Shown: positions 1,491-5,866 of the stretch, in pieces | Layout: each line of letters starts with the position of its first letter | Numbering within the stretch: position 1 is the first letter of the stretch | From: a virus | Virus record (IMG/VR): IMGVR_UViG_3300021964_000400 | Span: 1-27,803 of that record | DNA: 27,803 nucleotides | Strand: one strand, 5' to 3' | The notes under the pieces: model-generated | The model's database searches: none | What the model was told of the DNA's origin: nothing | The model's input: the letters and a program-made list of their open reading frames with translations, nothing else | Position numbers and translations under genes: made by a program

Positions 1491-1776
1491 GGCGTGTGAA
1501 ATAGACACACATCAATTCGTCGCCATCTTAAAGCAACACCACGAACGCACCAACGAGAAGGGTTGGTTTGTTTGTCTTTACTGTTACGAGAATGATCTAT
1601 GGCAAACAGCAATAAAAACAAAGGAACGTATCACGAAAAGTGGTTTGTCAAATGGCTTAATCAAATCGAAGCGCCGATCGAAGCGAAAAGAGTCCCCCTT
1701 AGTGGAAGCTTGGGAGGAGAGTATAGCGGCGACATCCACATCTACATCAACGGGCAAAAGTTGGTGGGAGAAGTAA
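1450..1776 (+). CDS. zinc-ribbon protein with dual-coding tail, 108 aa
   Basis: The N-terminal half has two cysteine pairs, C13-x2-C16 and C42-x2-C45, separated by a histidine-rich helix, which suggests a small treble-clef or HNH-like zinc site (HHERTNEKGWFVCLYC). The C-terminal 50 residues are basic and then Ser/Thr-rich (ATSTSTSTGKS) and are read from DNA that codes the nuclease gene in another frame over 178 bases. The zinc part is probably the functional part. The tail may be little more than run-on to the next stop. The function is unknown, and no catalytic HNH signature is complete enough to call. Confidence 0.5.
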   Translation: MTSKSKKGKSARCEACEIDTHQFVAILKQHHERTNEKGWFVCLYCYENDLWQTAIKTKERITKSGLSNGLIKSKRRSKRKESPLVEAWEESIAATSTSTSTGKSWWEK

Positions 1777-1958
1777 AGTATAGGGACAAATCTAACTTCC
1801 CTAGCCCCTTCTCTGTCTTAGATAAACGAGACATTGCATTTTATAAAAGACGGACGGGAAGTCCGCAAACACTGGTCATAATGACTGGGGAAAAATTCAA
1901 ACAACTAATGGAGAACAGATATGGAAACACAAAACAAAATGCTCAAGACGATACTTGA
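1599..1958 (+). CDS. PD-(D/E)XK nuclease, Holliday junction resolvase-like, 119 aa
   Basis: The protein has the order of an Hjc-like fold: E13 in the first helix (GTYHEKWF), a basic strand with VPLSGS (32-37), D45 in GDIHIYI, and E58-x-K60 in VGEVKYR. This is the D-(x)n-ExK active site of the PD-(D/E)XK superfamily. At about 120 residues it has the length of archaeal and phage resolvases. Such enzymes cut branched DNA that arises in recombination and packaging. The gene lies upstream of the exonuclease and annealing genes, which supports a recombination role. The zinc-ribbon gene overlaps its first half in another frame. Confidence 0.75.
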   Translation: MANSNKNKGTYHEKWFVKWLNQIEAPIEAKRVPLSGSLGGEYSGDIHIYINGQKLVGEVKYRDKSNFPSPFSVLDKRDIAFYKRRTGSPQTLVIMTGEKFKQLMENRYGNTKQNAQDDT

Positions 1959-2118
1959 CCAGGGGACACACATCACATCGATAGATGCCCTCAACTGGAT
2001 TGGCACAATGCGCCTAGCTGCACGTGTCTATGACATCAAGCAAGAAGGATATCCTGTAGACAAATATGTGCGCGAAGAAAACGGAAAGCGCATTACATAT
2101 TATCACAAGGCTTTCTGA
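1921..2118 (+). CDS. winged-helix DNA-binding protein (HTH_39-like), 65 aa
   Basis: The sequence MLKTILDQGTHITSIDALNW, continuing with IGTMRLAARVYDIKQEGYPV, has the pattern of the small phage winged-helix family Pfam HTH_39: a first helix, then ITS-x-DAL, then a recognition helix with RLAARVYDIK, a Gly-Tyr turn, and a wing of strands ending in YYHKAF. ATG 1921 is in the published frame, but the internal ATG at 1939 (MLKTIL) matches the family start well. The gene overlaps the nuclease by 38 bases. It probably binds DNA as part of replication or recombination control; the exact target is unknown. Confidence 0.7.
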   Translation: METQNKMLKTILDQGTHITSIDALNWIGTMRLAARVYDIKQEGYPVDKYVREENGKRITYYHKAF

Positions 2119-2429: not shown

Positions 2430-3194
2430 ATGAATCGGACAGGATTCATAGGCGGGTCTGACTGCGTAAAGATTATGCAAGGTCAATGGCTTGAGCTATG
2501 GCAGATCAAAACTGGTCGTGTAAAACCAGAGGATCTATCAGATAATTTAGCAGTGCAAATGGGTATTTATACAGAAGACTTTCATCTGCGCTGGTTTGAA
2601 AAGCAACGTAACGTCAAACTGCAAGGGCATCAAACTAAGTTTGAAGCAACAGTTGGAAATGTTCCATGCGCTGGAACTGTAGACGCTATGCTTGACCGAA
2701 ACATTGTTGAAGCTAAACACACAAACTCATACAACACTATGAGCAAAGCGCTCGAATACTACATGCCGCAGATCCAATTCTATATTCACTTAGCTGATGT
2801 AGAGGGAGCTTATTTAAGTGTAATATTTGGCAACAGCGAATGGGATAGTGTGCATGTCGCAAGGAACGAAGAGTATTTTAATTCTATGTGGGCAGTGGTC
2901 TCAGACTTCTGGGGTTACGTTACAAGCGACAAAGAACCAATCGGTGTTGATACACCAATACTCGATACCAACAGTATTAAAGTTGACGACATGGTTACCA
3001 GAGATGCGTCTACTGATAATGCGTTCATCGATGCGGCGATCACTTACATACAGGGATACGAGCGTAATAGAATCTTTGAGGGAGCGAAGAAAGATCTTAA
3101 AGCCATGGTCTCAGATAATGAAAGAGAAGTTTACTGTGATTACCTCACGGTAAAACGTGACAAGCGTGGATCACTACGCATAACCAAACGATAA
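2430..3194 (+). CDS. YqaJ-type viral recombinase / exonuclease, 254 aa
   Basis: The open frame begins at 2376, but the ATG at 2430 with AAAGGAG upstream is the real start, because the 5' part is promoter. The protein follows the lambda-exonuclease-like YqaJ family in the PD-(D/E)XK superfamily. It opens with FIGGSDCVKIM (GSD at 9-11), has E49 in MGIYTEDFHLRWFE, D85 in AGTVDAML, and E94-x-K96 in IVEAKHT, followed by MPQIQFYIHL (Q114, Q116). It would resect DNA ends to leave single strands for the annealing protein encoded immediately downstream. The length is within the normal family range. Confidence 0.85.
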   Translation: MNRTGFIGGSDCVKIMQGQWLELWQIKTGRVKPEDLSDNLAVQMGIYTEDFHLRWFEKQRNVKLQGHQTKFEATVGNVPCAGTVDAMLDRNIVEAKHTNSYNTMSKALEYYMPQIQFYIHLADVEGAYLSVIFGNSEWDSVHVARNEEYFNSMWAVVSDFWGYVTSDKEPIGVDTPILDTNSIKVDDMVTRDASTDNAFIDAAITYIQGYERNRIFEGAKKDLKAMVSDNEREVYCDYLTVKRDKRGSLRITKR

Positions 3195-3205
3195 GGAGAA
3201 CACAA

Positions 3206-3637
3206 ATGACTAGCATTATAAGCAAGCTAATCAAAGCGCGAGCAGAGATTCAGCCACCAAAGAAAGAGGGAACCAACCCACACTTTCGCAGTAAGTACGT
3301 CACGCTCGAGGGCGTAATCGACGCAGTGACAGAGCCACTGGCCAATAACGGATTCTTCTTAGCGCAAGAAGTCACCGACTATCCAGACCATCGCCCATCA
3401 GTTTGCACCATTCTGAGACACGAAAGCGATCCGACTTGGCAGATGACATCCAATGTCCCACTTGTTCTCGGCAAGCAAGATATGCAAGGACTAGGCAGCG
3501 CGATCACTTACGCTCGACGCTATGGCATTATGTCTCTGCTCAATCTTCCCGCTGAAGATGACGATGGCAATGGCGCAAGCGGCACCCACAAAGATGCCGC
3601 GCCAGCGCCAAAGACAGAGCGTCAAAACGCATGGTAA
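3206..3637 (+). CDS. erf: ERF-family single-strand annealing protein, 143 aa
   Basis: Two ERF landmarks are clear: NPHFRSKYVTLEGVIDAVTE near residues 24-43 and the GLGSAITYARRYGIMSLLNL segment near 95-114, followed by an acidic AEDDDGNG. ERF proteins coat and anneal complementary single strands, as Erf of phage P22 does. The C-terminal tail is short, and the protein is shorter than the roughly 200-residue P22 type but includes the full core. It follows the exonuclease by 11 bases with its own AAGGAG, so the two form an exonuclease-annealase pair. The stop at 3635-3637 abuts the structured RNA at 3638. Confidence 0.85.
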   Translation: MTSIISKLIKARAEIQPPKKEGTNPHFRSKYVTLEGVIDAVTEPLANNGFFLAQEVTDYPDHRPSVCTILRHESDPTWQMTSNVPLVLGKQDMQGLGSAITYARRYGIMSLLNLPAEDDDGNGASGTHKDAAPAPKTERQNAW

Positions 3638-3707
3638 TTCTTAGGGAAAGGCGCGGGTAAATCGCCTGAACCACACTGACGGGCGGCAGTGTCCCTAAGA
3701 ACCGCCC
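3638..3707 (+). ncRNA. candidate pseudoknotted cis-regulatory RNA
   Basis: A perfect 10-bp stem pairs 3638-3647 with 3692-3701. Inside it are two perfect hairpins: 3649-3653 with 3663-3667 (loop CGGGTAAAT) and 3674-3678 with 3687-3691 (loop ACGGGCGG). The GGGCGG of the second loop (3681-3686) is exactly complementary to CCGCCC at 3702-3707, directly after the closing stem, which would make a 6-bp GC pseudoknot. It fills the gap between the ERF and SSB-like genes and ends 15 bases before the AAGGAG of the latter. I cannot assign it to a known class. Confidence 0.65.
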
Positions 3708-3736
3708 ACTTAACCTAAACAAAAGGAGCCAGAAGC

Positions 3737-4111
3737 ATGGCAGATTCAAATTTCGACAACAACAACAAAGGCGCAGCATGGACACCGTTCCCAACTCAAG
3801 AGATGATCTTGCAGGGAAAAGTCACCATCGACTTTGAAGAACACAAAGTTGTCTTAGTTAAAGACGTATTGCGTGACGGGAAAAAAGTCATCGAAGTTTA
3901 CGGTAAACTTGGAGTTATGTTTGATAACGACAAGAACGGTAATGACGCAGCACCAGATTTCTCTGGTCCAATGGGTGACAAATTGCGCATTGCAGGATGG
4001 AAACGTATGAAAGATGGTGCGCCATTCATTTCTATGTCCGTGTCTGAAAAGCAAGTCAAAGGAAATGACACGCAAAAAGCTGGGAAATTTGACGATTCAA
4101 TCCCATTCTAA
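3737..4111 (+). CDS. SSB-like protein with acidic C-terminal tip, 124 aa
   Basis: AAGGAG at 3723-3728 gives a firm start at 3737. The core is strand-rich (ILQGKVTIDFEEHKVVLVKD, then KKVIEVYGKLGVMFDND), and the extreme C-terminus is DDSIPF, the tip that in bacterial SSB recruits partner proteins (consensus DDDIPF). A flexible linker (EKQVKGNDTQKAGK) precedes the tip. I did not see a canonical OB-fold signature, so the assignment rests on the tail, the size and the neighbours: exonuclease and annealase upstream. It may protect single strands made by the exonuclease. Translation may be controlled by the RNA element just upstream. Confidence 0.55.
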   Translation: MADSNFDNNNKGAAWTPFPTQEMILQGKVTIDFEEHKVVLVKDVLRDGKKVIEVYGKLGVMFDNDKNGNDAAPDFSGPMGDKLRIAGWKRMKDGAPFISMSVSEKQVKGNDTQKAGKFDDSIPF

Positions 4112-4123
4112 GTTGCATAACTT

Positions 4124-4206
4124 GGAGTTCCATTCTAATCTGAGAATGTTCTCCGTAGGGGTCAACTGCCTGACTGTCCGCAAGTCCTCACCCCCTACCA
4201 ACCTAG
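4124..4206 (+). ncRNA. multi-hairpin untranslated region before a terminator
   Basis: Two stems are visible between the SSB-like stop and the terminator. The first has CATTCT (4131-4136) paired with AGAATG (4143-4148), extended by GGAG with CTCC (4124-4127, 4151-4154). The second has GTAGGGG (4155-4161) paired with CCCCTAC (4192-4198) around a 30-base interior. An AGTCC at 4183-4187 could pair with GGACT of the terminator and so compete with it. Whether this is a 3' end, an attenuator or a leader of the next gene is not clear. Confidence 0.4.
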
Positions 4207-4231
4207 CCAGTCCTTCGGGACTGGTTTTTTT
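4207..4231 (+). terminator. intrinsic terminator
   Basis: CCAGTCC (4207-4213), a TTCG tetraloop (4214-4217), GGACTGG (4218-4224) and seven T (4225-4231) form a textbook Rho-independent terminator on the plus strand. It ends the recombination operon or attenuates transcription into the small genes beginning at 4245. Confidence 0.85.
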
Positions 4232-4244
4232 ACAGGAGGAACCC

Positions 4245-5244: not shown

Positions 5245-5442
5245 ATGGAATTCTTTACAATACTTGTTTTCGTTTTGAACGAAAAAATTACAAATCAAAT
5301 CGTAACCAAAAGCGAATGGGCTTGCTCCGAGTTAATGAACAAGCACCTTAGCTATGAGGGGGATATGTACTGCATCAATACTGGTGTGGCCAGTAGCAGC
5401 ATTAAGCCTAAGCTGAGACCTCGAAGTGAGGAGCATCAATAA
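5245..5442 (+). CDS. small hypothetical protein with hydrophobic N-terminus, 65 aa
   Basis: The protein starts MEFFTILVFVLN, a short hydrophobic stretch, then carries two cysteines (WACSEL and MYCINTG) in a pattern seen in small exported or membrane-anchored phage proteins. The spacing to an AGAAGG at 5228-5233 is long. The gene follows the structured RNA directly and its end overlaps the converging endolysin gene by 35 bases. No function can be assigned. The likely location is the membrane or periplasm, by inference from the N-terminus only. Confidence 0.5.
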   Translation: MEFFTILVFVLNEKITNQIVTKSEWACSELMNKHLSYEGDMYCINTGVASSSIKPKLRPRSEEHQ

Positions 5443-5866
5443 ATGGGCGCTTTCCCTGAGAGCGACGGAGATCAACGTAGGCGTTCATTGCCTCTTCCAT
5501 AGTACCTTCCCATGTGCGGATGTCATCGATGTGCCATGCAGCGCCCCAGCGCAGGGCTACGCCGCAATCAATGGCAGCCGCCTTCATTGCATCTGCGATC
5601 TCATCATAGAGATTTAATTCCCAACGAATACCGCTACCATCTTCATAAGCTGCAAGATCAACAGCCAATCCATCAATGTGTTTTGACTTCATAGTCTGGG
5701 AAGCACCTTTGGCAACAAGTTTGCGCTGTTCCTCGATGGTTCGCAGCCCACAGACAACAGAGAAGTCTTGTTTGCTTTGACCAATGGCCGCACGAACAAC
5801 AGTTTGCAACCGTTCATCAACGCCCTCTAAGCGCTCAAGGCTGCGCTGCCCTAGCTTGTAACTCAT
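5408..5866 (-). CDS. endolysin, M15-family L-alanyl-D-glutamate-type peptidase, 152 aa
   Basis: The zinc peptidase signature of the M15 (VanY/DacY-like) family is visible: SKHIDGLAVD at 61-70 gives ligands H63 and D70, and DAPHFEV at 144-150 gives H147. R42 lies in the usual GLRT motif before the zinc site. The enzyme would cut the peptide stem of peptidoglycan at lysis. It has no signal peptide, so it depends on the holin encoded directly upstream, with which it shares a four-base overlap. The length is typical for single-domain phage endolysins. The convergent plus-strand gene overlaps its last codons. Confidence 0.85.
   Translation of the reverse strand: MSYKLGQRSLERLEGVDERLQTVVRAAIGQSKQDFSVVCGLRTIEEQRKLVAKGASQTMKSKHIDGLAVDLAAYEDGSGIRWELNLYDEIADAMKAAAIDCGVALRWGAAWHIDDIRTWEGTMEEAMNAYVDLRRSQGKRPFIDAPHFEVSA

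Follow-up and report, generated by a model that had tools for sequence, protein, structure and literature searches.

The nearest functional precedent for the RNA described here is the operator of T4 gene 32: the gene 32 protein (gp32) binds a pseudoknot in its leader and then spreads along a UUAA-containing tract over the ribosome-binding site; T4-related phages can lack this knot (PMC3014915, PMC535899). As in the operators of T4, T2 and RB69, the locus studied here has a pseudoknot in the leader of a phage single-strand binding protein (SSB) gene, followed by a UUAA-containing tract that leads to the ribosome-binding site, and as in those operators the structure is not universal among related phages. 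The differences are considerable. The T4 knot comprises about 28 nt (two coaxial helices by NMR in the case of T2) and is located about 67 nt upstream, whereas the linker to the AUG is 26-29 nt here. The T4 operator is a simple pseudoknot without an enclosing stem, whereas here a stem (P1) encloses the knot in all sequences of what we call the first version, with an additional hairpin (P2) being optional. The A+U-rich UUAA(A) tract is present (ACUUAACCUAAACAAAAGGAG), but shorter than that of T4. Finally, the SSB belongs to a different family, and a copy of the element can precede an exonuclease gene.

Several other described RNAs resemble the element in part. The exoribonuclease-resistant RNAs (xrRNAs) of flaviviruses have the same P1/P2/P3 layout, with the loop of P3 paired to the strand 3' of P1. 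The loop pairing of the flavivirus three-way junction is present here, but P2 is missing in some members; the xrRNAs feature conserved junction nucleotides, a base triple and a 5' end paired to the junction, whereas here the junction varies freely, P1 is long, P2 is dispensable and the virus is a bacterial one. The repZ/repA activator pseudoknot of IncI-alpha, IncB and IncL/M plasmids, reportedly described by Asano and Mizobuchi in 1998, is formed by a hairpin loop that pairs just upstream of the Shine-Dalgarno sequence of the downstream gene, as here, and likewise adjoins an upstream reading frame whose translation matters. The element studied here differs in being part of a phage operon with full-length genes and in having no known antisense to the loop; the likeness meant here is one of layout. 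STAXI RNA, a tandem pseudoknot of enterobacteria, also occurs near SSB genes (PMC2864571). The STAXI motif (RF01728) resembles our element in being a pseudoknot RNA near SSB and other DNA-handling genes, but is made up of two or three pseudoknots in tandem, many of them with UUCG loops, and belongs to Enterobacteriales, whereas we find one copy per site and no match to Rfam.

The window, by which we mean the whole stretch of DNA analysed, is a 27.8-kb virus record with a recombination cassette on the plus strand of its left part (Table 1). Judged by the large terminase, the nearest annotated phage is Pelagibacter phage EXVC031P Hodr, whose protein shares 65.5% identity with that of the window. 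A comparison with annotated phage records yielded no DNA match to the window, a single weak protein match to the SSB, and no protein match to a second SSB type. The SSB-like protein has no Pfam match and no sequence match in the PDB. It is predicted to be all-beta (mean pLDDT 74.6), and among the PDB matches listed for the predicted fold none was convincing. In the window and the relatives the protein ends in a C-terminal D-x-I-P-F motif, like bacterial SSBs. Elsewhere in the window, ARAGORN calls a tRNA-Ser (aga) on the minus strand (5790-5860), which overlaps the end of an open reading frame on the same strand (5408-5866) and is possibly a false positive.

Table 1. Coordinates in the window of the recombination cassette, the structured leader of the SSB-like gene and the second element downstream
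Feature	Position	Strand	Remarks
RusA-like resolvase	1599-1958	+	
Small gene	1921-2118	+	
RecE/YqaJ-like exonuclease	2430-3194	+	Homologue carries the pseudoknot element in L193, L206, L227
ERF-family annealing protein	3206-3637	+	PF04404, E 8.9e-22
ERF stop codon UAA	3635-3637	+	Immediately 5' of P1
P1 5' strand UUCUUAGGGA	3638-3647	+	10 bp with 3692-3701
P2 5' strand AGGCG	3649-3653	+	5 bp; optional, hypervariable hairpin
P2 3' strand CGCCU	3663-3667	+	Pairs with 3649-3653
P3 5' strand CACUG	3674-3678	+	5 bp; extendable to 3673
Pseudoknot 5' strand GGGCGG	3681-3686	+	Within P3 loop; 6 bp
P3 3' strand CAGUG	3687-3691	+	Extendable to 3692
P1 3' strand UCCCUAAGAA	3692-3701	+	Pairs with 3638-3647
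Pseudoknot 3' strand CCGCCC	3702-3707	+	Directly 3' of P1
Linker, UUAA-like repeats (ACUUAACCUAAACAA)	3708-3722	+	Read as unpaired, from the alignment
Shine-Dalgarno AAGGAG of SSB-like gene	3723-3728	+	
SSB-like protein, DDSIPF tail	3737-4111	+	Weak PHROG match to an SSB family
Second element: UGUUCUCC	4147-4154	+	Perfectly complementary over 8 nt to the Shine-Dalgarno sequences of exonuclease and ERF
Second element: hairpin GUAGGGG/CCCCUAC	4155-4198 (stem 4155-4161/4192-4198)	+	After the complementary stretch
Second element: closing intrinsic terminator	4205-4233	+	

The gap between the ERF and SSB-like genes is 99 nt long and contains, between 3638 and 3707, every pairing of the original prediction at the predicted coordinates, namely a 10-bp stem, two 5-bp hairpins and a 6-bp pseudoknot. 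The region is non-coding, as had been claimed: the ERF gene ends with TAA at 3635-3637, and P1 abuts this stop codon with a gap of 0. The sequence also bears out the predicted distance of 15 nt from the end of the fold to AAGGAG; the distance to the ATG at 3737 is 29 nt. A search for the architecture of P1, P3 and pseudoknot found a single site in the whole window, with a score of 15. A score of 15 or more was reached by one of 1000 dinucleotide-shuffled windows, in agreement with the earlier judgement that such nested complementarity is unlikely to arise by chance. The folding energy, with the pseudoknot left out, is ordinary (z = -1.25), and the case therefore rests on the nested complementarity and the comparative data. 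The fold in the window leaves the Shine-Dalgarno sequence of the SSB-like gene free. Several other identities were considered for the interval and rejected: an intrinsic terminator at the fold is ruled out by the missing U run after P1; coding sequence does not agree with interval lengths that vary freely and not in threes; inspection by eye found neither a slippery site nor a conserved frame for stop-codon readthrough or -1 frameshifting; and in a comparison by eye with the hammerhead, the CUGANGA core was missing.

Relatives were gathered by searching IMG/VR with SSB, with ERF and by pattern. In all, 46 distinct IMG/VR sequences have the fold, nearly all of them between an annealing-protein gene and an SSB-like gene, and it was found only in uncultured phage contigs. 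We aligned 47 matches to a covariance model in which P1 and P3 were paired and the pseudoknot was left unpaired; one of the 47 (L226, minus strand) is spurious. Overall, 99.4% of cells in the alignment of P1, P3 and pseudoknot are paired, cells that are not independent events given the shared ancestry of the aligned sequences. P1 is paired in 99.7% of cells, with changes on both sides in one pair, and P3 in 99.6%, with such changes in four of five pairs, both counts leaning towards the covariance model. The pseudoknot is paired in 98.9% of cells, with changes on both sides in three of six pairs; this count was not fitted to the model, since the pseudoknot is absent from the model's structure, although the scan that supplied the first 44 sequences accepted only paired pseudoknots. 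The pseudoknot occurs as GGGCGG/CCGCCC, GGGUGG/CCACCC, GGGCAG/CUGCCC, GAGGGG/CCCCUC and GGGGGG/CCCCCC, and also with a U-G pair as GGGUGG/CCGCCC. In P1 the sixth pair varies between G-C, A-U and G-U, and L261 has a double change (UUCUUGAGG/CCUCAAGAA). The covariation score was 0.301, compared to at most 0.07 when the partners were slid against each other, and exceeded that of all 500 shuffles. Thus, base pairs covary in all three helices of the relatives, P1, P3 and the pseudoknot, whereas a lack of covarying pairs in homologues had been named in the original prediction as its refutation. The structured RNA in the ERF-SSB gap is real, confirming the earlier observation. Over the whole structure there are 41 G-U pairs and two A-C mismatches, a bias that points to an element acting as plus-strand RNA.

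The three-way junction of the original prediction is present in the window, but it is not constant in the relatives, where P2 is optional. The interval between P1 and P3 contains a significant hairpin (p<=0.05) in 18 of 40 relatives, and several members, for example L002, L090 and L214, have no P2 hairpin at all. As P2 is variable or absent, the constant core of the element consists of P1, P3 and the pseudoknot. The sequence and length of the junction vary freely, and few unpaired positions are conserved, the exceptions being the first A of the P3 loop and the A that follows the pseudoknot. In the P3/pseudoknot part, 2-3 nt precede a pseudoknot stem of 6-7 bp and none follow it. A classical H-type knot has loops of these lengths, and we regard this part as an H-type-like knot with P1 inserted in its third loop.

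A second version of the element is found in six sequences (L282, L314, L328, L333, L339 and L369). Its P1, P3 and pseudoknot are in the same places, but the P1 sequences (UUGCAGA/UCUGCGA, UUGUGG/CCACGA, UUGUAG/CUACGA and GUAGAG/UUCUAC) are unrelated to those of the first version, and the pseudoknot has 7 bp (GAGGCGG, GAGGUGG or GGGGUGG with its partner). The stems of the second version were assigned by hand and their pairing was then confirmed by script. Two further leader types were noted by eye. A small knot in L262, L263, L272, L290, L303 and others, possibly an H-type pseudoknot (GGGG-GUUAAU-CCCC-AUUAAC), adjoins the ribosome-binding site of the SSB gene directly upstream, and the annealing-SSB gap of L104 and L105 holds a divergent leader with other stems and a possible GGGGGG/CCCCCC pseudoknot.

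The position of the element is tightly constrained at both ends. In the SSB context, the gap from the stop codon of the annealing gene to P1 is 0 nt despite differing C-termini of the annealing proteins, with the exception of L121 (3 nt). The distance from the pseudoknot to the AUG is 26-29 nt in all 46 leaders of the first version and 27-28 nt in the second. The total gap ranges from 84 to 109 nt in the first version and from 68 to 127 nt in the second, a variation that sits inside the fold; a few shorter values are probably an artefact of the automatic choice of the upstream frame. Structureless leaders directly after the annealing gene have gaps of 11-31 nt, and the other long gaps in relatives lacking the fold contain another small gene or another structure. 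A long gap with fixed spacing on both sides implies that the fold brings the two ends of the gap together. In L193, L206 and L227 the fold instead precedes an exonuclease gene, with the pseudoknot immediately upstream of the ribosome-binding site and 18 nt from the AUG; the upstream stop codon is about 45 nt away. The L227 copy is the second one on a 43.8-kb contig with two recombination cassettes. Each cassette of this contig (L217/L227/L228) has its own SSB and pseudoknot element, and the assembly is possibly chimeric.

On a tree of SSB proteins the presence or absence of the element changes at least 18 times, the tree being one of 125 rows with few columns and many unresolved forks. Identical SSB proteins are encoded with the first version and without any element (L106 and L109/L111), with the second version and without (L369 and L370), and with the second version and the small knot (L314 and L306). 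In alignments of such pairs, near-identical flanks enclose either the element, a short spacer or a small gene. The element is a module that can be exchanged, which weakens any mechanism that depends on one particular SSB. It is not essential, because it is absent from many close relatives, even ones with identical SSB proteins. When there is no element, the annealing-SSB gap often has a small gene in it (L107, L109, L111, L238, L305, L370 and others), making the gap a hot spot for insertion.

The RNA family appears to be new. Rfam (release 15, 4227 families) gave nothing at the gathering threshold in the window or in 20 relatives, in keeping with the original statement that no known class could be matched, and permissive scans returned unrelated low scores only, none of them credible. 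A search of 84,980 bacterial and archaeal genomes with the P1 pattern produced 40 matches, none of which had the pseudoknot on inspection. The literature we searched, with partial coverage, contained no description of the element.

What does the element do? Its spacing and conservation point, on balance, to a cis-acting RNA that controls translation at a gene boundary of the phage recombination operon, a reading that we rate as the likeliest and hold with slightly more belief than doubt. P3 and the pseudoknot form a compact H-type-like knot clamped by P1. Through this clamp the 5' end of the element adjoins the stop codon of the upstream annealing gene, while the 3' end is 26-29 nt from the SSB start, close to where an initiating 30S subunit has its upstream edge. 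A ribosome that halts on the UAA of ERF would lie over the 5' strand of P1 and melt it, with the fold forming again after the ribosome has departed. Folding would reduce the gap of 68-127 nt to roughly the 11-31 nt that relatives lacking the element typically have, and the folded element would modulate ribosome loading at the SSB start, either alone or together with a bound protein. We infer that translation is controlled at this boundary, with P1 being melted by the ribosome that terminates at ERF, and the element probably helps to set the amount of SSB protein made. Melting by a ribosome cannot be the mechanism of the copies in the exonuclease context, given their distance of about 45 nt from the upstream stop codon. 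The original prediction had suggested a role in tuning the SSB. The fixed spacing makes this plausible, but the element is found before exonuclease genes as well and occurs with and without identical SSBs, and is therefore not tied to the SSB alone. We rejected sequestration of the SSB Shine-Dalgarno sequence by the P2 loop: pairing to this sequence from the P1-P3 interval is significant (p<=0.05) in only 10 of 42 relatives and not in the window (p=0.55). The P1-P3 interval is enriched in UCCU, with 20 sequences compared to 3.9 expected, part of which may be explained by shared ancestry. UCCU(U) is present in the interval of L116, L132, L134, L211 and others, but missing from the window, and in some relatives it pairs over 7-9 bp with the SSB Shine-Dalgarno sequence.

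Rather unlikely in our view, the precedent of T4 notwithstanding, is an autogenous operator, in which the SSB would bind the pseudoknot and spread over the UUAA-rich linker and the ribosome-binding site to repress its own synthesis. The gene type is the same as that of gp32, and the order of pseudoknot, UUAA-containing linker and ribosome-binding site agrees with the pseudoknot and UUAA(A) repeats of the T4 operator (PMC3014915, PMC535899); two more leader types in the relatives can be drawn as pseudoknots. However, the presence of the element does not track SSB kinship, identical SSBs being found with and without it, some copies precede an exonuclease gene, and relatives without the fold (L124-L128) still have the linker. 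The topology itself, with P1 enclosing hairpins and a loop pairing just 3' of P1, is that of the exoribonuclease-resistant RNAs of flaviviruses, and one such RNA stops the bacterial RNase J1 as well (PMC5760640). Accordingly, the knot might block exonucleases or mark a processing boundary, such that the SSB mRNA outlives the upstream part of the transcript. We consider such a role in mRNA stability or processing doubtful: P1 has 9-10 bp and its 5' end is far from the junction, P2 is dispensable, the junction bases are not conserved, and the narrow range of distances to the start codon suggests that the role is linked to the ribosome.

A compact junction with a pseudoknot in an intercistronic leader also brings to mind riboswitches and small self-cleaving ribozymes, the analogy drawn in the original prediction. 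It was not supported by the comparison with relatives, in which P2 and the junction are variable or missing and unpaired bases are hardly conserved; nor was there any Rfam match in the window or relatives, and we now think either identity very improbable. A search of the alignment of relatives for the conserved unpaired pocket of a metabolite riboswitch found almost no conserved unpaired columns, making a metabolite sensor unlikely. Equally remote is a function at the level of DNA, as a structured single strand or recombination site that aids the exchange of modules at this boundary. The gap is indeed a hot spot of swapping, with near-identical flanks around the element, around small genes or around nothing at all, but the 41 G-U pairs against two A-C mismatches and the consistent orientation relative to the genes point to RNA.

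Downstream of the SSB-like gene, the window contains a second element, which is independent of the pseudoknot in sequence and has no Rfam match. In most relatives, the SSB gene is directly followed by (U)GUUCUCC, then by a hairpin whose sequence varies, and lastly by a terminator. Of 76 distinct 3' regions, 64 contain GUUCUC, and the stem that begins within 3 nt of it has 18 different 5' arms and a mean length of 6.8 bp, compared to 4.3 bp in shuffles. The plus strand of the window contains exactly three copies of GGAGAAC (1910, 2420 and 3195), which are the Shine-Dalgarno sequences of three consecutive genes, the exonuclease and ERF genes among them (8-nt target sites, 1910-1917, 2420-2427 and 3195-3202). 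GUUCUCC occurs exactly once (at 4148), and the match extends over 8 nt (UGUUCUCC/GGAGAACA). Among the relatives, 455 of 469 occurrences of GGAGAAC precede a start codon.

The 3' region appears to coevolve with the upstream ribosome-binding sites, although the means are inflated by shared ancestry. For a phage's own 3' region and own exonuclease site the mean match is 7.93, compared to 7.03 with swapped sites (highest of 40 swaps, 7.27) and 5.30 with shuffled regions. The corresponding values for the annealing-gene site are 7.25, 6.70 (highest 6.93) and 5.25, whereas there is no signal for the SSB's own site (5.22, swapped 5.21, shuffled 5.38). Both sides have changed in divergent phages: UACUUCCUCU/GGAGGAAGUA in L121, UUAGUUCUCC/GGAGAACUAA in L045 and ACGUUCUCC/GGAGAACGU in L130. 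This pattern of complementarity suggests an antisense element that leaves the SSB unaffected and acts either in cis or as a small RNA. A joint circuit with the pseudoknot is possible. Antisense RNA from the 3' end of the SSB transcript would silence the ribosome-binding sites of the exonuclease and the annealing protein, while a ribosome-gated or nuclease-resistant pseudoknot would keep the SSB expressed when the upstream genes are off; we put forward this cooperation of two RNA devices tentatively and with considerable doubt.

With our analysis, a group of uncultured marine phages gains a pseudoknot RNA that is well supported and has no counterpart in Rfam. Besides the operator of T4 gene 32, it is a second, apparently independent pseudoknot located before a phage SSB gene, and the identical SSB genes with and without the element provide a natural experiment on what such knots do. 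Together with the coevolving, putative antisense element, the pseudoknot suggests that phage recombination operons are under more RNA regulation than is evident from gene annotation.
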